From Syncephalis fuscata (taxonomy: Eukaryota; Zoopagomycota; Zoopagomycetes; Zoopagales; Piptocephalidaceae), in contig JAHLTZ010000017.1 in the NCBI GenBank assembly GCA_025786725.1, forward strand, positions 62,001 through 126,000: a stretch of DNA of 64,000 bases, read 5' to 3'. The notes under the pieces were generated by a model that did no database searches, was not told where the DNA came from, and was given only the letters and a program-made list of their open reading frames with translations. Position 1 is the stretch's first letter. Each line of letters begins with the position of its first letter. Below, piece after piece: positions 6,743-62,878 of this stretch. Both the position numbers and the translations under genes were made by a program.

Positions 6743-8548
6743 AGCGGTAAAGATAAACAAAAATGGATTATTAAACACAGATGTTTAGATACTAAGCAAT
6801 TGATTGAATAAATAAACTGCAGGGTGTGCGTAACTCGTTGCTACACTAGGCGAGAAAGAAAGATTCAAACTTGAGAAAAACTGTGGTTTTACTTGCCAAT
6901 ACCAGAATAGGAAGAGAAGAGCATAGGCGAAAAAGATCAACGCACGAGATACTCAAGTAGCGCCTACAATAATCCTTCGTAAGCTAATAAAATAGTTGCT
7001 GCCGTAACGAATGGTGAGAAATAAAAGGAGAAGATCAGATAAGTATCAAAAGACAGGGAAAAGAATAAAAGCGGAACTCATTGATTGAATGGCGCCAATG
7101 TCAAGCGACATCTTTAAATAGTAAAATCATTTAAAAAATAGCGGTACAGTTTTTATACGTCGTGCGCGTGTTATCAGATCAGGGTAAGATCGGGTCATTT
7201 CGGCATAGAATGGCTCATTGTCCGACGCTATAGGCGACAAGTGCCATCCTATTGGCGATAAAAAAACGCATAAATAAAATATTTTAATCAGAATAGTAGT
7301 CATTTTATTTCTATTGTGATTGATAATTATCTGATGTTAGTGGCCAATAATAATAAAGCACTATTTTTACTGGCAGTTATCAGATGAAGCCACTATATGT
7401 CAAAATAGACCCTATTCAACACGACTATTTTGAACACTTGAATCCACATACCTTAAATATCCAAATTGTTTTCTGTTTAGACAAGAAGATAGAATCCGCG
7501 TTCTTAGTAAGGATTATGCTGATCTGAGACAAGCTAGCAAATTCAGCCGATCTACCATTTTCACTACAGATTGATTTGACGATATAGAAAAACTATTGTA
7601 AATAATTCATCTCTACAAATACAACAAATCTACAAACATTTAGTTTATTAAACAAAATAATGGTTATAACAAACACTTACTCAAGAAGAAAGCCACTTAT
7701 CAATTTTGATGGCAACAAGCTCTCCACGATGCTTTCGCCGTTTCAACGTTTGCCAGCACTTATTGACAGCAGCAAATCAATGACTCTTATACATTATTTT
7801 GCCTGCCAAACACAGTAAGCGGCATTGCTTTGTTGCTTGCAGTTTTATTGGATGTCATTCTTTTTTCTCTTTCGGTAAATAGCTATTTAATTGTATGCAA
7901 AAGTATTGAATAATTATGTATAAAACAATACATAATGACTAAACGATTCTAATAATATTTGTTTAAACAAACAAAATTCATTATTTAATATATCTTATAT
8001 TATACCAGAGATGACCTGCAAACTAAATCTTTTTTATTTTTCATTCGGCACTATGTCTTTGCTATCATAGAATAAAATGCTTTTTCGATACTTTATAGTC
8101 CCTGTCATACTGTACTCTCCTTTGGTCATAAGCTATCATACTGCTGCAAATACTGTGATGTTCAGGAGGAACATTGCAGCATTTATTTTACACTAAATAG
8201 TCGGATCGTGTAACAGAATATGGCTAATCTGCACATCTCTACCACGCATGTACGAAATCATCAGATGCATATTATCACATTATTGGTATATTGGTATACA
8301 CGCACTTCAATCCACCACGTGGATGTATTTTATTGGTTCCTACTTCACATCAATGCTATAGTTTATAGAATATACTCGTTGATCCCTCAAGACAACCATA
8401 GACTTAAATAGCCCACACAACACATACAATTAACTAATAGCATTATCGCCACTCTTTAGTTTTTGCTAAATACTCACTACTATTCACTCTTTGCGAATCG
8501 CACTCTATTGTCTATTCTATTTGTTTGTTTCAACAAATCAATATCACC
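6743..8548. other. 1.8-kb divergent intergenic region
   Basis: This region separates the minus-strand MFS gene from the plus-strand micro-exon gene, so it should contain both promoters. It is AT-rich except for a modestly GC-richer patch near 7140-7260. I see no supported gene, RNA or repeat. A 63-codon frame at 8220-8411 has no recognisable features and is not annotated. The sequence just upstream of 8549 is C/A-rich (ATATCACC before the ATG), a plausible leader. Confidence 0.45.
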
Positions 8549-11005
8549 ATGAAGCTTTATATTGCCGCCGTCAGCACTATCGCCGTGGCTTTTATAGCCA
8601 GTACAGCCATGGTAGATGCTAGACCAGCTCTAGTCCGTCGTGGTATGTTGCTATTAAATTAGTGTGCAAGCTGTTATATTTGCTGATATTATATTTAACC
8701 GACAGTGGAATTAGATGGTAGGCCGTGATTATGGGTTGTTGTTGTTGTTGCTATACTTACAATACATTCTTGCTAAATAATAAACATAATAAACAGGCAG
8801 TAAGTCTTGAGTACACATTGTAATATATACGCTGATTAGGAGTTATCTGCCGATTTAAATAGACAAAACACCACCACCACCACCTAAAAGTAAGTTTATT
8901 ACAGCCTAGTATATTATGCACTGTTTTTGTAATACTAATATGCTAAACTAATATTGATAGGACGTAAGTAGCGTTATATATTAACTGAGATTTACCAATT
9001 AATGCTATATATTGTGTATATTAACAATTCAATATTAATAGAATGTAAGTGGTATTGCGTGACAATTAACTGTTCACTAACTATATGTTTACTATGCGCG
9101 TCAACAACTTGATATTAATAGGCTGTATGTAATACTATGTATTAAGTGACTATGTGTTAATTACAAGCTATTCGTTTTGTGTATCAACGGCTTGATATTA
9201 ATAGGCGGCAAGTGGCATTTTGCATCGATTGACTGCGTATTAACTAAATGCCATATTATACATATATATATATATACGACTTAACACTAATAGCTCGTAA
9301 GTGGTATTGTACAATAACCAGTTATTCACTAATTAATTGCTATTATTGTATGTATCAATAACTTGATAGCTTGTAGGTGGATTGTATATTAATTAGCTAT
9401 ATGTTTATTAATTTTTTACTTCTTGCATCAACGGCTTAATATTAACAGGTCGTAAGTGATACTGCACACTACTTTTATACACAAAATGCATGTTGTTTAC
9501 TTTTTTGTATTAAAAATACTATCAACAGCTTGTAAGTAAATTTTTATTTTGCTTGATTATGCACTAATTACATGCTATTTAATGTTTATATCAACAATTT
9601 AATATTAACAGCTGGTAAGTGATATTTTATATTAAGCGATTAAACGACAATTACTTACCATATATTGTGTGTATCAACAACTTGATACTAATAGGCCGTA
9701 AGTAATATTTTACATTGCTTGACCATGCATTAATTATACGTCATTTATTATGCATATCAACATTTTAATATTAATAGAATGTAAGTGGTATTTTATATCG
9801 ATTGGGTTTATATTTAATTAAATACTATACATCGTATGTATCAATGGCTTGTTAGTTTGTAAGTAGTATTGTATGTCAACTATCTATATACTTATTAAGT
9901 CTTCTACTTTGTATGTTAACAAATCAACATTAATAGGTAGTAAGTAATATTGCATATTATTTGCTTATACATCAACTACATGTTGCTTAATTTATGTAAA
10001 AATACAATATTAATAGCTCGTAAGTGGCATTTTGGATTAACTAATTATGCACCAACCACATGTTATTCACTATGTGCATCGACAACTTAATATTGCTAGT
10101 CGGTAAGTGATACCATGTATTAATTGAATATACATCAACTAAATGCTACATATCGTACGTATCAACATCTTAATATTAATAGAATGTAAGTGGCATTGTA
10201 TAAAATTTAGCTACGCACTATCAAATGCCCATTGTTTGTAAATTAACAACTTAATTTTAATAGGTCGTAAGTGGCATTGTATATTGCCTGACTATGCATT
10301 AATTATATGGCTGTTGCATATATCAACAATTTATTACTAATAGGCTGTAAGTTGTATTGTATACTAATTGACCATATATTAAGTATATGATTGCTGTATG
10401 TATTAACAACTTCATATTAATAGTTGGTAAGTGAACTTGTATGCAAGTTGAATATAAGCTAATCACATGCTTATTGTGTTTCAACGACTTACTACCAATA
10501 GTGCGTAAGTGACATTGCATATTAATTGATTATACATTAATTACATGCCATGCACTATACGTATTACAATGTAATGTTACTAGCATGTAAGTGGCATTGT
10601 GCATCAATTGACTATGCACTAATTACATGCTTGTTATACATTATCAACTTAATACTAATAGGCAGTAAGTGATGATGTATATTAGTCGACTATGCATTAA
10701 TTACATACTGTGTATTGTATGTATTATTGGTTAATATTAATAGAAGGTAAAAGATATTGCGCATTAATCAACTATGCCTTAATTATATGCTAACTATATG
10801 TACCGCCGTCTTATACCAATAGATGGTAAGTGCCACTGTATACTAATCGACTATACACTAAGCACATCCTATATGCTGCGTATATCAATAAATTGTATTT
10901 ATAGACCGTAAGTAATACTTTATATCAATTGGCTATGCGCTAATTCTATGCCATATGCTTTATGTATTTAAAGCTACAATTTAACCAGTACTTCCGGGCC
11001 ATTAG
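8549..11005 (+). CDS. Secreted cysteine-rich peptide encoded by 30 exons, 26 of them 3 nt long
   Basis: Predicted exons are 8549-8642 (94 nt), 8706-8717 (12), 8797-8799 (3), 8863-8889 (27), then twenty-five 3-nt exons starting at 8961, 9042, 9122, 9205, 9294, 9370, 9449, 9529, 9612, 9695, 9778, 9856, 9937, 10017, 10100, 10183, 10264, 10344, 10424, 10502, 10584, 10662, 10744, 10823 and 10905, and a final exon from 10989 with TAG at 11003-11005. Every intron is phase 1, so each tiny exon supplies two bases of one codon and one of the next. The spliced CDS is 228 nt, about 9% of the locus, encoding 75 residues: a signal peptide (about 1-24, MKLYIAAVSTI start), a linker with five prolines, a Lys-Arg that could be a Kex2-type site (45-46), then a domain with six cysteines at 48, 49, 52, 58, 62 and 67 (C-C-x2-C-x5-C-x3-C-x4-C), ending LLPGH. 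The motif CCAPCPSGQFC is readable across exons. The function is unknown; a secreted effector-like or defence-like peptide is inference. The exon model rests on splice signals and needs RNA evidence. A possible poly(A) signal AATAAA lies at 11213-11218. Confidence 0.8.
8890..10988 (+). repeat. Tandem array of ~26 homologous introns, period ~75-85 bp, each separated by one 3-nt exon
   Basis: Each unit begins GTAAGT (21 of the 25 micro-exon donors; the others are GTATGT, GCAAGT, GTAGGT and GTAAAA), continues with an AT-rich body containing a TTGACTATGCATTAATTACATGC-like core, and ends with TATCAACAACTTAATATTAATAG or a close variant. Intron lengths are 71-86 nt. The 3 nt between the AG of one unit and the GT of the next vary freely: I count 19 different triplets in 25. 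The repeat is therefore intron plus one codon, with conserved introns and variable exons. TTAAT blocks about 9 and 3 nt before the AG are candidate branch sites. Unit similarity is clear but well below identity, so the array is not a recent expansion or an assembly artefact of one unit. Confidence 0.9.
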
Positions 11006-12509
11006 CATTGGTAGTACATTTGGACTACTAGTCCAATACACTTTAGGTATGCGCTCGGCAAAAGGCAAGATCATTTAGCAGCCGCCGTCTAGTTTATTCA
11101 TACATCAATTCCTGCCAATGCTCCGGTTTATTTGAGCTTCAATCGGTCGAATCATTATATTACTAACAAGCCTAAGTTTAATTGAATCTATTCAACTATC
11201 CAAGCTTGTAGTAATAAACATATGTTCTATCTTAATGAGCACGGTATTTTTATAATAATTATAATTAGTGCAACAATAGTTTACATCATTTTTAGATTAA
11301 AAATATATACTTTTGTAGAAAAAATTTAATAGAAACCCGCTCGATTGCCGTATGGCATTTTGCAATTAATTTTCTTTAACTGTTCGTTTTCACATATGTT
11401 TATATAAAATCAATGGATGAGTTACCTATCATGTATTATATTTGTACAAAAGTGGTAAATTACACATTTACTATTATTATTATTATTTATAGTTCAAATC
11501 AAATCATGTATTTATTACTACGAGCCTGCATGATTAAATAAATACATTTAACTACAGACGTGCTTGGCAATATAGTAACACTATTAGTTAAAGATTGAAT
11601 AAATCATGGGTTGACTAGAACTTGATATATGGGTAAAGTAGACAATAGTTGTCAAATACTCTTGATTTTTGTCAGATGCGTATCTAAAATATGTAATACT
11701 AGCAATTTAATTATATCATCAATGCCAATGTCTTGAAAGCATCAGTTATTTTTATGACCAGTTTTTTATGGTGACGCTGAATAGCACATTTATGATGACT
11801 AACAACAAGCTGATGGACAAGAGCTTGTAGTGATTATCTTTTAACCAATAATGCAGTATCACGACGGATTAAAACTGGCTCAGCATCTATTATGACTATG
11901 TTGGCCACAAAGGTCACAGTGAGGGTACAGGCGACGGCAATATAAGGTTTTCATTATGGCATATAGTATTTGAGTGGTTTTAACATTAATAGTTATAACA
12001 TCTATTAATTAATAATCACAACTGTAGCCTCAATAATCAACTGCACTTATTAAAAAGTATTTGAAAGAGGATTGCTTAACAACAATGCGGAAGGAAAGCT
12101 TAGTAAAAATAGGTGCGAATGACAATAGCCAGAGAAATATGCTTTATTGCTATTTGTTATGGGGAATCGTAGACATTTGTAAATGTTGGAATGGCAATTT
12201 GCTGCTACACTCAGATAGGTCCGCCTTTTACATATCTACATTCGTAGCTTTACCAATACTAATAATATCAACTATAGCTTTTCACCGTCATTTATAGTGT
12301 AAAGTAGTATTACTCTGGTGTTACTATACGTACCTCACCTGTGTGTCAGCTGTTCTTATTGAAAAAAACGCTGTAGAACCTTTGTTTCATCTTGACCATT
12401 TTAAAGAAGTAAAAGCCGTCATTCTATTCGCTGTTACTACCGTTGCTGCTATTGCTGTTACTATTGCTATCGCATCTGTTGGCTGTTTCTTCAATTAATA
12501 CTTGGTGTG
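11006..12509. other. 3' flank of the micro-exon gene and promoter of the Sac gene
   Basis: The first 90 or so bases after the stop are GC-richer than the introns and are probably 3' UTR. AATAAA at 11213-11218 is a candidate poly(A) signal. The rest is AT-rich without a supported gene; the 78-codon frame at 12061-12297 starts at a non-ATG codon and has no features. The end (12400-12500) is pyrimidine-rich with GCTGTTACTATTGCTG-like triplets, a plausible leader for the gene downstream. Confidence 0.45.
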
Positions 12510-46812: not shown

Positions 46813-46930
46813 AACTACGTTCATTGCGCCTAGAAAGCACCGGATCCCGTCCGATCTCCGAAGTTAAGTTAGGCCGCGCTTCTGTAGTACTGCGGTGGGG
46901 GACCACGCGGGAATGAGAAGTAATGTAGTT
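46813..46930 (+). rRNA. 5S ribosomal RNA
   Basis: The 118-nt sequence has the 5S terminal helix: AACTACGTT at the 5' end pairs with AATGTAGTT at the 3' end. It contains the conserved CGGATCCCGTC segment, TCTCCGAAGTTAAG, and TAGTACTGCGGTGGGGGACCAC, the internal control region and loop E area of eukaryotic 5S genes. It is transcribed by RNA polymerase III with TFIIIA. The RNA joins the large ribosomal subunit. Ends are set by the helix and are good to one or two bases. A single copy is present here, outside any rDNA unit, as in many fungi with dispersed 5S genes. Confidence 0.95.
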
Positions 46931-46937
46931 CAAGCTA

Positions 46938-47009
46938 TCTCTGTTAGTATAGTGGCAAGTATACCCGCCTGTCACGCGGGAGACCGGGGTTCAATTCCCC
47001 GACAGAGAG
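46938..47009 (+). tRNA. tRNA-Asp (anticodon GUC)
   Basis: A 72-nt intronless tRNA. The acceptor stem TCTCTGT pairs with ACAGAGA, with G as discriminator base. The D-arm is TTAGTATAGTGG (box A), the anticodon stem CCCGC/GCGGG holds GTC at 46971-46973, and the T-arm is CGGGG TTCAATT CCCCG (box B). All stems are fully paired. The gene starts 7 bp after the end of the 5S rRNA gene on the same strand, and a T-run follows within 3 bp. Confidence 0.97.
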
Positions 47010-60597: not shown

Positions 60598-62878
60598 ATG
60601 TTGTCGTTGACTACCGACAACCAGACACGCTTATTGCGCGTGATTATTCTGGCAAGCATTGCTCTCGTAGCCTTTGCTTCGCGTCTCTTCTCTGTTATTC
60701 GTTACGAATCGGTCATCCACGAGTTTGATCCTTGGTTCAACTATCGCACCACTCGCTACCTTGTAGAGCATGATCTACATCAGTTTTGGAACTGGTTCGA
60801 TGAGACAAGCTGGTATCCGCTAGGCCGTATTGTAGGCGGTACACTTTATCCAGGTCTAATGATTACGGCAGCAGCCTTTTGGAATACACTGCACACCATT
60901 GGATTACCCGTTGATATCCGTAATGTATGTGTATTTATGGCGCCAATCTTCTCTGGTCTATGTGCTGTAGCAACCTATCTTGTCGCAAAGGAACTTAAAG
61001 ATAGCCGAACAGGCTTGTTGGCTGCATTGTTTATTGGTGTTGCACCTGGCTACATCTCTCGATCAGTTGCCGGCTCCTATGACTATGAAGGTATTGCCAT
61101 CTTTCAAATGATGCTTACCTTTTACTTCTGGCTAAAGGCCGTAAAAACTGGATCAGCCTTCTTTGGCGGTCTTGCTGCCATTGCCTACTTTTACATGGTG
61201 TCAACCTGGGGCGGCTACGTATTTCCAATTAATCTTATTCCATTGCATGTGTTTGTTCTGCTACTTATGGGCCGGTTCTCGAATCGAGTCTATGTCGCCT
61301 ATTCCACGTTCTACGCTATTGGTACATTGTATTCAATGCAAATTCCATTTGTTGGTTTCCAGCCAACACGTACGAGCGAACACATGGCAGCACTTGGTGA
61401 GTAGTATTTCTGACTATATCTATTGATATATTTACATTTTATTAGGTATCTTTGGCTTAATTCAAATCGTCGCTTTTATACAGTTGGTACGCAGCCATCT
61501 GGCTAGCAAACAGTTCCGTACACTATTGCTAGTCTCAGTTGGTGTATCATTTGTATTGGCATTTGGTGCTTTGGTCTTTCTTACCATGCGTGGCTATATC
61601 GCACCATGGACTGGCCGTTTTTATTCGCTATGGGACACAGGATATGCCAAGAAACATATTCCAATTATTGCATCCGTTTCGGAACATCAGCCAACGCCAT
61701 GGACAAGCATCTTCTTCGACTTACAGCTACTTACTTTCCTATTCCCTGCTGGTGTATATTTCTGCTTCCGTACGCTAAAGGATGAGCATATATTTGTCGT
61801 GTTATTTGCTGCTGCTGCCACGTACTTTGCAGGTGTTATGATTCGTCTGGTACTTACATTGACCCCTGTAGTATGTGTGGCAGCTGCAATTGCCGTTTCC
61901 AATGTATTGGACGCGTATTTAAAGGCAGTACCAAAATCCGACAGCTCCACCGCGTCATCGACGCAAAATGTCAGTGCCGATGGCAAGTCGTCGACTTCTA
62001 ATACCGATAGTAAACGTACTCGTTCTTCATCAGTGTCTTCTGATGACTTGACGGAGAAAGGCTACGTTCGCAGCGAGCTATCCAAGCTGGGTACCGTTGC
62101 TGTCTTTGCCTATATGATGGTACAATTTGTCTGGCATTGTACATGGGTGACAAGCAGCTCTTATTCTTCGCCATCAATTATTCTTTCTTCATATACACCC
62201 GATGGCCGACAACATATTATTGATGATTTCCGTGAAGCATACTTTTGGCTGCAGGAAAATACGGCTCCTGATGCAAAGATTTTATCTTGGTGGGACTATG
62301 GCTATCAGATTGCCGGCATGGCCAATCGTACCGTGATTGTTGACAACAATACGTGGAATAACACGCATATTGCCACTGTAGGTTTGGCATTGGCATCTCC
62401 TGAACCAGTGGCGTATGATGTGATGCGCAAATTGGATGTTGACTATGTGCTTATCATTCATGGTTCCGTGTTGGGCTATAGCGGTGATGACATCAACAAG
62501 TTCCTATGGATGATCCGTATTGCACAGGGTGTGTATCCACATATGGTGCAAGAATCCGACTTTTACTCGGCCAAAGGACAGTACCGGGTTGATGGAGAAG
62601 CATCCAAGACCATGAAAGAAAGCTTAATGTTTAAGTTGAATTACTATCGTGTACATGAGCTATTTAACAACGGAGAAGCATGGGATCGTGTACGACAAAC
62701 GGGCGTAGATTCTAAAAACATTAAACTGTCTACAGTTGATGAAGTCTACACCAGTGAGAACTGGATTGTTCGCATCTACAAGCTAAAAAAGCCTGATAAT
62801 TTGGGCCGTCCGCTACAGGATGCAGCCGCTTTCGAGGAGAATCGTCGTAGAAAGCGCAAGATTGTGAAAAAGTATTAA
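60598..62878 (+). CDS. STT3: Oligosaccharyltransferase catalytic subunit STT3
   Basis: Two exons (60598-61396 and 61446-62878) joined in phase 1 across a 49-nt intron give 743 residues. The first luminal loop has [17 protein letters not shown] with the catalytic-metal DPWFN motif. Multiple membrane segments follow (about 13 in the family). The second half contains [11 protein letters not shown] and the signature [17 protein letters not shown] (WWDYG, sequon recognition), then NNTWNNTHI and a C-terminal DK-type region ([25 protein letters not shown]). The enzyme transfers the preassembled glycan to Asn-X-Ser/Thr in the ER. A Ser/Thr-rich insert (about residues 425-465) interrupts the lumenal domain. 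The frame is intact. The ATG at 60598 begins directly before the first membrane segment. Confidence 0.96.

Follow-up and report, generated by a model that had tools for sequence, protein, structure and literature searches.

The micro-exon genes (MEGs) of schistosomes are described as encoding secreted, fast-evolving products of the parasite-host interaction, with a coding region that consists mostly of very small symmetrical exons (PMC4350168). The bicycle genes of aphids are described as encoding fast-evolving putative effectors; they have many microexons, with a mean of about 17 exons, and codon position 2 is where nearly all of the internal ones begin (PMC9168663). Even smaller exons have been described, i.e. 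an exon of 1 nucleotide (nt) in the plant genes APC11 and VPS55 and an exon of 3 base pairs in Drosophila homothorax (PMC4674806, PMC8831610, PMC7392893), and a combination of intron definition and stepwise splicing has been suggested for such tiny exons (PMC4674806, PMC8831610). Two other reports concern the introns themselves: fungal introner-like elements are many near-identical spliceosomal introns in one genome (PMC4457414), and at the ratchet points of recursive splicing in flies abutting acceptor and donor sites are used stepwise (PMC8605326). Here we describe a gene at positions 8549-11005 of a stretch of 64,000 nt from the genome of Syncephalis fuscata (contig JAHLTZ010000017.1, positions 62,001 to 126,000; hereafter the window, with positions counted from its first letter). 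From its sequence and that of its paralogs, this gene very probably belongs to a family of S. fuscata genes for small secreted peptides. Many of these peptides have about six cysteines, and they would be encoded codon by codon and diversified by the exchange of intron-codon units.

The spliced chain was rebuilt by script from the window, and all coordinates of 8549-11005 were re-read. They agree with the exon chain of an earlier sequence-only reading, which had placed 25 consecutive 3-nt exons between an AG and a GT, or once a GC; this GC donor is at 9208. All parts lie on the plus strand. Behind a 5' leader that is conserved among paralogs (8501-8548, from a search of the fetched loci with window positions 8501-8654), exon 1 (8549-8642, 94 nt) encodes a signal peptide and a Kex2-like dibasic site (...PALVRR), both judged by eye, and ends in phase 1. 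It is followed by exon 2 (8706-8717, 12 nt), exon 3 (8797-8799, GCA) and exon 4 (8863-8889, 27 nt), the latter encoding most of a KTPPPPPK linker. The sequence-only reading had set these three apart as short exons preceding the array; all are present, but exon 3 is itself 3 nt long, like the exons of the array. The array (8890-10988) consists of introns of 71-86 nt alternating with 25 single-codon exons, with a unit of about 81 nt. As located by the spliced-chain script, these exons are GAC (8961-8963), AAT (9042-9044), GCT (9122-9124, donor gtatgt), GCG (9205-9207, with the GC donor), CTC (9294-9296), CTT (9370-9372, donor gtaggt), GTC (9449-9451), CTT (9529-9531), CTG (9612-9614), GCC (9695-9697), AAT (9778-9780), TTT (9856-9858), GTA (9937-9939), CTC (10017-10019), TCG (10100-10102), AAT (10183-10185), GTC (10264-10266), GCT (10344-10346), TTG (10424-10426), TGC (10502-10504), CAT (10584-10586), GCA (10662-10664), AAG (10744-10746, donor gtaaaa), ATG (10823-10825) and ACC (10905-10907). 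The last exon (10989-11005) carries the stop codon TAG and adjoins a 3' motif of the type CAT.AGCATTG that is common to the paralogs.

Every intron of the gene is in phase 1, i.e. each codon spanning a junction is formed by the last base of one exon and the first two bases of the next. The joined frame of 228 nt, stop included, contains no internal stops and yields the 75-residue product MKLYIAAVSTIAVAFIASTAMVDARPALVRRVELDGNKTPPPPPKRQCCAPCPSGQFCTLECRFVPCKDDLLPGH, with six cysteines inside 20 residues, which reproduces the product predicted earlier. Least certain of all is exon 2, with its weak donor gtaggc; exons 3 and 4 are also insecure, as is the last exon, in which the acceptor is 9 nt further downstream than in 17 of the 23 3'-anchored models of the family. 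Exon 4 contains a stretch of CCA repeats, encoding PPPPP before Lys-Arg; perhaps it is a 3-nt exon that grew by trinucleotide slippage, giving a second dibasic site. Taken by itself, the window gene lies within chance and proves little. When the order of its array exons is shuffled, the 18 adjacent codons tested contain a mean of 0.97 stops, against none seen, and 2.1 cysteines, against four seen, and the earlier estimate of about 0.3 for an open frame by chance was a fair one. The proof therefore rests on the family of paralogs.

A DNA search of the S. fuscata genome with window positions 8501-11100 gave at least 126 matches, with 40 of 369 candidates scored, and a search at the protein level with the signal peptide yielded at least 155 (150 of 340 candidates scored). 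The best matches of the DNA search form a first list of 40 array loci, and fetched S. fuscata loci are given L-numbers below. The signal-peptide head (query 8501-8654) was found in 39 of these 40 loci, including the window gene; in the 38 others its identity to the window is 77-86%, with a few covering the query only partly. The remaining locus, L029, begins at a contig end and lacks the head. Between 13 and 45 units were detected per locus. An assembly error is unlikely as the source of the arrays, since the same head recurs in 39 of 40 loci on many contigs and all 40 loci hold at least 13 units. Contigs shorter than 35 kilobases hold 12 of the 40 loci (L017, L018, L020, L029, L030, L031, L036, L038, L040, L042, L044 and L046). 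With these loci on short contigs and L029 at a contig end, the assembly may be breaking at arrays, which would make the family count a lower bound.

The spacing of 3 nt is a property of the whole genome. The pattern TTAATAG-N3-GTAAGT has 1992 exact matches (911 + 1081), against a single match for the reversed-pattern control, and the variants with N2 and N4 have only 13 (control 8) and 5 (control 4) matches, respectively. These exact-pattern counts carry no preference for exon length, in contrast to our splicing scripts, which favour length 3 by 3-5 score units. Within the 40 loci, 997 strong acceptor-donor pairs 3 nt apart were found in the sense direction and none in antisense. A rough estimate, derived from the ratio of exact to all units (562/1035) in the 40 loci, which are themselves best matches, is that the genome contains some 3,700 exons of this kind, spread over about 140 arrays. 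A first-donor pattern gave 110 matches, against 20 in the reversed control, and at least 57 of these start with TGGTATGTT, which is of the array-head type. Many other first-donor matches in the S. fuscata genome lie away from known array heads, in a recurrent sequence, TAGTATGTTGCAATG. Four arrays outside the first list were also examined, and a signal-peptide exon lies upstream in two of them, with none in the fetched stretch of the other two. The heads of L077 and L080 are divergent, and L078 has none in its fetched stretch.

Gene models were built for the 39 loci with a head, and L027 was also left out of a frame-blind splicing of the remaining 38. The signal peptides of the frame-blind models conform to MKLSIAVVCTIVVALVASTAMVDA[KN]PALVRR, and in many cases a short cysteine-rich peptide comes after them. 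Of the 1051 internal exons in these models, 1034 are 3 nt long; the corresponding figure in the 39 frame-aware models is 1062 of 1093. Only multiples of 3 occur in 30 of the 39 frame-aware models, and 24 of those 30 have at least four cysteines in the mature part, odd counts included. Some models end one unit early or late. A 3' anchor was available for 23 of the 39 loci (16 are without it), and in 17 of the 23 the last acceptor lies 20 nt before the shared 3' motif, a place which the score mildly favours.

Evidence that these exons code comes from their order. Units were located from intron letters only, so that the letters of the exons played no part in finding them. When adjacent exons are joined in phase 1, the resulting 859 codons contain four stops, compared to 53.9 +/- 5.8 when exon order is permuted within each locus (minimum 34 in 2000 permutations), and 149 cysteines, compared to 77.4 +/- 6.4 (maximum 99). 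The four stops fall in L027 (which has ACG as start codon), L032 (which has a 2-nt exon), L041 and L044. After removal of near-duplicates (9 loci dropped, leaving 31 loci and 699 codons), three stops remain against 43.6 +/- 5.1 (minimum 26), and 123 cysteines against 62.6 +/- 5.7 (maximum 81). A stricter set, with 12 loci dropped, gives one stop against 39.8 +/- 5.0; as this set excludes the stop-bearing L027, L041 and L044, the former figure is preferred. Phase 2 contains 69 stops. Phase 0, in which each exon would be a codon, is also poor in stops (5 in 1035), but it would encode mainly Ala, Leu, Ile and Asn, Cys making up 0.7%, and exon 1 and the last exon fix the reading phase as 1. The depletion of stops and the excess of cysteines in the true order imply that what carries the coding information is how the 3-nt pieces, spaced by about 78 nt, follow one another. 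A chance open frame, plausible for the window gene alone, is ruled out by the spacing and the stop depletion in the family, and the one-codon-per-exon reading gains from both.

In addition, the same family contains uninterrupted members, which share the exon 1 type of the array genes. Of 28 further loci, 24 encode, behind the same signal peptide, a mature part in one uninterrupted frame that holds six to eight cysteines, and the cysteine spacing is typically C-x2-C-x3-C ... C-x3-C-x3-C. These 28 loci, some of which are duplicates of each other, comprise 17 picked for long open frames, eight best signal-peptide matches and three likely array heads. In a comparison of 16 array peptides with 17 contiguous ones, all chosen by us, the spliced product of array gene L025 aligned to that of the intronless L064 with a score of 113, against a maximum of 58 in 300 shuffles that preserve cysteines. 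At the DNA level, 179 of 214 aligned nt are identical, exon 1 included, and for the mature part alone 76 of 92 nt are identical, with a score of 83 against a maximum of 38.5 in 500 codon shuffles. A residue absent from the L025 model sat at a gap of 161 nt left by the script. This gap contains a 3-nt exon, TGG, which has a GC donor and which escaped the scan because its acceptor is too distant from the motif; with this exon included, L025 matches the residues of L064. The sequence-only reading of a cysteine-rich secreted product is thus strengthened: this peptide family has members without interruption, and for one of these the homology to an array peptide is clear. Two protein-profile searches with the family gave matches in S. 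fuscata only (11 at E <= 1 and 14 at E <= 10). Four of the 14 annotated S. fuscata family proteins were found contiguous in the genome, and the gene annotation seems to miss the array genes. Two annotated proteins, P0129 and P0132, carry the same signal peptide before a mature part of the GPIPPFGACKCRDDDGYCTSC type and make up a sub-family.

Comparison of paralogs indicates how the arrays change. In ten close pairs pooled, some with a member in common, differences affect 190 of 765 sites in 3-nt exons, compared to 1278 of 16485 in intron cores, and exons are faster than introns at p <0.01 in six of the ten. The differences are spread evenly over the three exon positions (60, 61 and 69; the middle base is the third codon position). 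Positive selection at the amino-acid level is disfavoured as the sole cause, since the three positions differ alike and codon changes track intron changes. Flank divergence is 0.146 beside changed exons and 0.024 beside unchanged ones (15 pairs), and in the ten pairs codons were changed in 2 of 47 cases with no flank differences, 5 of 49 with one or two, 11 of 45 with three to eight and 76 of 99 with more than eight. Unit-by-unit profiles of seven pairs are mosaics of identical, divergent, and gained or lost units, to which mis-pairing of units by the aligner would add, yet such mis-pairing would itself reflect gain or loss of units. Insertions or deletions of whole units include gaps of 243 nt (L018/L019) and 641 nt (L020/L021). 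In L013/L014 there are no differences in 600 nt upstream, followed by 477 of 2308 in the intron cores and 68 of 114 in the exons; downstream there are none in 300 nt when counted from 90 nt past the last unit, and 11 in 300 when counted from the unit itself. L042/L047 also has no differences in 600 nt upstream, and in L026/L030 the upstream flank is not frozen (12 to 23 per 100). In these comparisons codons change mainly as intron-codon blocks, and the replacing process would presumably be recombination or gene conversion. Not every codon change is a block, since in the last two units of L015/L016 GCA became ACC and TCA became ACG (five of six bases), with no differences in 80 nt of the introns before and between them, which hints at an exon-limited change besides block exchange. 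The size of the family, its intronless versions and the replacement of codons in blocks all go beyond the sequence-only reading.

Several observations weigh against this codon-by-codon reading of the family, besides the window gene, which by itself is not significant. Nine of the 39 frame-aware models contain one or more internal exons with a length not divisible by 3, and four of these nine hold a 2-nt exon that the exact pattern also shows; L013, L015, L022 and L032 have one 2-nt exon each in an otherwise regular 3-nt array. Six of the 30 models with only multiples of 3 have zero to three cysteines, five of them through a wrong donor that the script chose inside exon 1. Three of the four further arrays (L077, L078 and L080), in which units are missing, read without cysteines in phase 1, and therefore not all arrays need be cysteine-rich. 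Just one of the 16 array peptides clearly beats the cysteine-preserving shuffles; shuffles match L018, L019 and L030 in 3 of 300 cases, L012 in 7 of 300, and the other 11 in 14 to 282 of 300. None of the 14 annotated family proteins shares more than five consecutive mature residues with the 39 fetched array models. Exons are not significantly faster than introns in four of the ten pairs (p 0.098 to 1), which are the least diverged ones, and the apparent conservation of splice sites in the same ten pairs, where donors differ at 17 of 1643 positions and the acceptor AG at 0 of 546, is inflated because the presence of the sites was required.

Some of these points would fit a non-coding satellite of intron origin, lying in one long intron and supplying recursive-splicing or decoy sites, with exon 1 joined directly to the last exon or with loci that have decayed. 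The single consensus shared by the sampled introns (see below), the nine models with an off-length exon and the window gene's lack of significance all agree with this. A satellite would hardly account, on the other hand, for four stops where 54 are expected, with an about twofold excess of cysteines, in the true order and in phase 1 only, nor for the homology between spliced L025 and an uninterrupted gene, which extends to an exon that the script had overlooked. Also against it speaks the last acceptor, which 17 of 23 models place 20 nt before the 3' motif common to the paralogs, a place mildly favoured by the score. We consider the satellite explanation very improbable, and the nine off-length models look like broken copies or wrong models.

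A different possibility, compatible with that reading, is that the 3-nt exons mainly serve alternative splicing, with skipped subsets producing a pool of in-frame isoforms from each gene. The symmetry of the exons, with 1062 of 1093 internal ones 3 nt long, would permit this, and schistosome MEGs, whose very small exons are likewise symmetrical, are described as making such pools (PMC4350168). Since the donor and acceptor motifs are strong and nearly uniform across units, favouring constitutive use, and since the L025 product with all exons included agrees with its intronless paralog, we regard such a role as rather unlikely.

The commonest length of the introns is 78 nt (390 of 859 in the 40 loci), and 150 introns sampled from the 859 align to a single consensus. 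They have GT(GC)-AG ends, GTAAGT donors and TACTAAT/TTAAT-like 3' motifs, albeit that these ends were required for calling units. Exons of 3 nt are hard for exon definition. Beyond this general consideration we found nothing in support of a removal of the intervening sequences from the DNA itself or by means other than the spliceosome, and the spliceosomal look of the ends makes such a removal extremely improbable; in vivo splicing by the spliceosome is thus the presumed route. RNAalifold found no consensus structure for the 150 sampled introns. Sixty single introns fold at a mean of -10.1 kcal/mol, compared to -8.9 (standard deviation 2.9) for plain shuffles, and the consensus sequence alone folds at -13.1; no claim is made for intron secondary structure as a mechanism.

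Two features of the introns bear on the origin of the arrays. Similarity between introns of an array falls with their distance, from 0.768 at distance 1 to 0.708 beyond 12, as tandem duplication predicts. Units from different array clusters with introns 90-95% identical over 80 sampled intron sites have the same codon in 3.0% of 935 pairs, which is the background level; above 95% identity there are only 15 pairs, with the same codon in 3 of 13 and 2 of 2. Tandem duplication followed by neutral drift is disfavoured, since near-identical introns keep their codon only at the background rate. This lack of codon memory would instead follow from a mass insertion of introns, i.e. an introner-like invasion in which intronless six-cysteine genes were saturated by one mobile intron. 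The existence of intronless paralogs, and of introner-like elements in fungi (PMC4457414), fits such an invasion as well. Random insertion would not, in contrast, yield a constant 3-nt step in one phase, which tandem unit duplication would give, and the greater likeness of neighbouring introns also points to duplication. Furthermore, among 44 array loci, all 41 with a head carry the head of this family, with array introns not sought in other genes. An introner origin is therefore possible but doubtful, and in its simple form it leaves the 3-nt step unexplained. Duplication and the lack of codon memory could be reconciled by exchange of units or by fast codon change after duplication.

S. fuscata is placed in Zoopagales, and the hosts of Syncephalis are Mucoromycota. 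Syncephalis has been called a genus of mycoparasites, and S. pseudoplumigaleata has been sequenced among biotrophic mycoparasites (PMC10386755, PMC6784888); Dimargaritales are described as attacking host species similar to those of Syncephalis. In the family described here, a signal peptide and a dibasic site were recognized by eye, suggesting that the products are secreted and cleaved at the dibasic site. A Pfam scan of ten spliced members gave no convincing match; the best E-value was 0.0019, to a zinc-finger model in one of the ten, and the others were 0.025 or weaker, each in one of the ten. An AlphaFold2 model of the annotated intronless P0121 with two relatives was unusable, with a mean confidence (predicted local distance difference test, pLDDT) of 60 and a predicted template modelling score (pTM) of 0.31. 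The secretion signal, the dibasic site, the cysteine framework, the restriction of the family to S. fuscata in our two profile searches, and diversification between conserved flanks lead us to expect a role in antagonism or recognition. For a parasite of fungi, a function against the host or against rival fungi seems the likeliest, by a modest preference; self/nonself or mating signalling comes next, as a distinctly weaker candidate.

We propose the following mechanism. Exon 1 would supply the signal peptide and the dibasic site, and the last exon the stop, while the mature peptide would be spelled by the tandem array, in which the repeat unit is an intron of about 78 nt plus one codon, in phase 1. 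Dozens of short introns would be removed singly, presumably by intron definition, each ligation leaving one codon behind, and the messenger RNA would then read straight through. As a unit contributes 3 coding nt in a constant phase, its gain, loss, copying or exchange shifts the peptide by whole residues and the frame is kept. The array may in this way act as a codon-level cassette region that diversifies a peptide facing a host or rival fungus. We think it somewhat probable that the family is a system of diversification at single-codon resolution, in which units are exchanged among some 140 arrays holding several thousand cassettes, serial splicing reassembles the message, and the intronless members are 'frozen' versions.

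Elsewhere in the window, an STT3 segment at 61427-62878 is 100% identical to an annotated S. fuscata protein. The minus strand at 11857-11945 carries another signal-peptide exon of this family, in a decayed state and with 72% identity over 89 nt; its frame reads ...IAVACTLTVTFVANIVIIDAEPVLIRR and has no in-frame start. A 5S ribosomal RNA gene, followed 6 nt on by a transfer RNA gene, is found on the plus strand at 46813-47009.

If the splicing is real, the spliceosome handles 13 to 45 exons of 3 nt per gene, far beyond the isolated exons of 1-3 nt in the papers cited above, and both the limits of exon size and the models of intron definition become directly testable. It would also represent a new use for introns, as homologous spacers which make single codons exchangeable, and keep the frame immune to gain or loss of units, in fast-evolving genes. 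As the annotation seems to miss the array genes, similar genes may hide in other genomes. The sequence-only reading knew of no gene with dozens of consecutive single-codon exons, and our searches of open-licence literature, as judged by titles and the starts of abstracts, likewise gave no gene with runs of such exons; none of the titles listed for papers that name Syncephalis concerns it.

Compared with the known systems, the S. fuscata genes resemble schistosome MEGs in their fast-evolving and presumably secreted products, and in that very small symmetrical exons make up most of what they encode (of 1093 internal exons, 1062 are 3 nt long), with about 40% of the product in a larger first exon. 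They differ in that the exons are 3 nt long with few exceptions, that the introns share one consensus and form a tandem repeat, and that the organism is a fungus; no relation in sequence is implied. With aphid bicycle genes they share rapid evolution, many microexons and internal exons that begin at codon position 2, and they differ in the 3-nt length of the exons, in the homologous repeat introns and in the presence of intronless paralogs in the same genome. The CYC motif is a feature of bicycle proteins. The profile searches with the family had no aphid protein among their matches, and no direct comparison with bicycle or MEG sequences was made. The isolated tiny exons demonstrate that spliceosomes can include exons of 1-3 nt, but in the cited reports they occur singly, or with at most two neighbouring microexons, unlike the arrays described here. 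Introner-like elements are described as copies that sit in genes unrelated to one another, and arrays with a 3-nt step are not part of that description. A ratchet point of the fly leaves nothing in the messenger RNA; the S. fuscata arrays, in contrast, would leave one codon per step. Weighting the small symmetrical exons alone would make the arrangement a variant of the micro-exon gene; because its repeat unit is an intron plus one codon, we regard it as categorically new.

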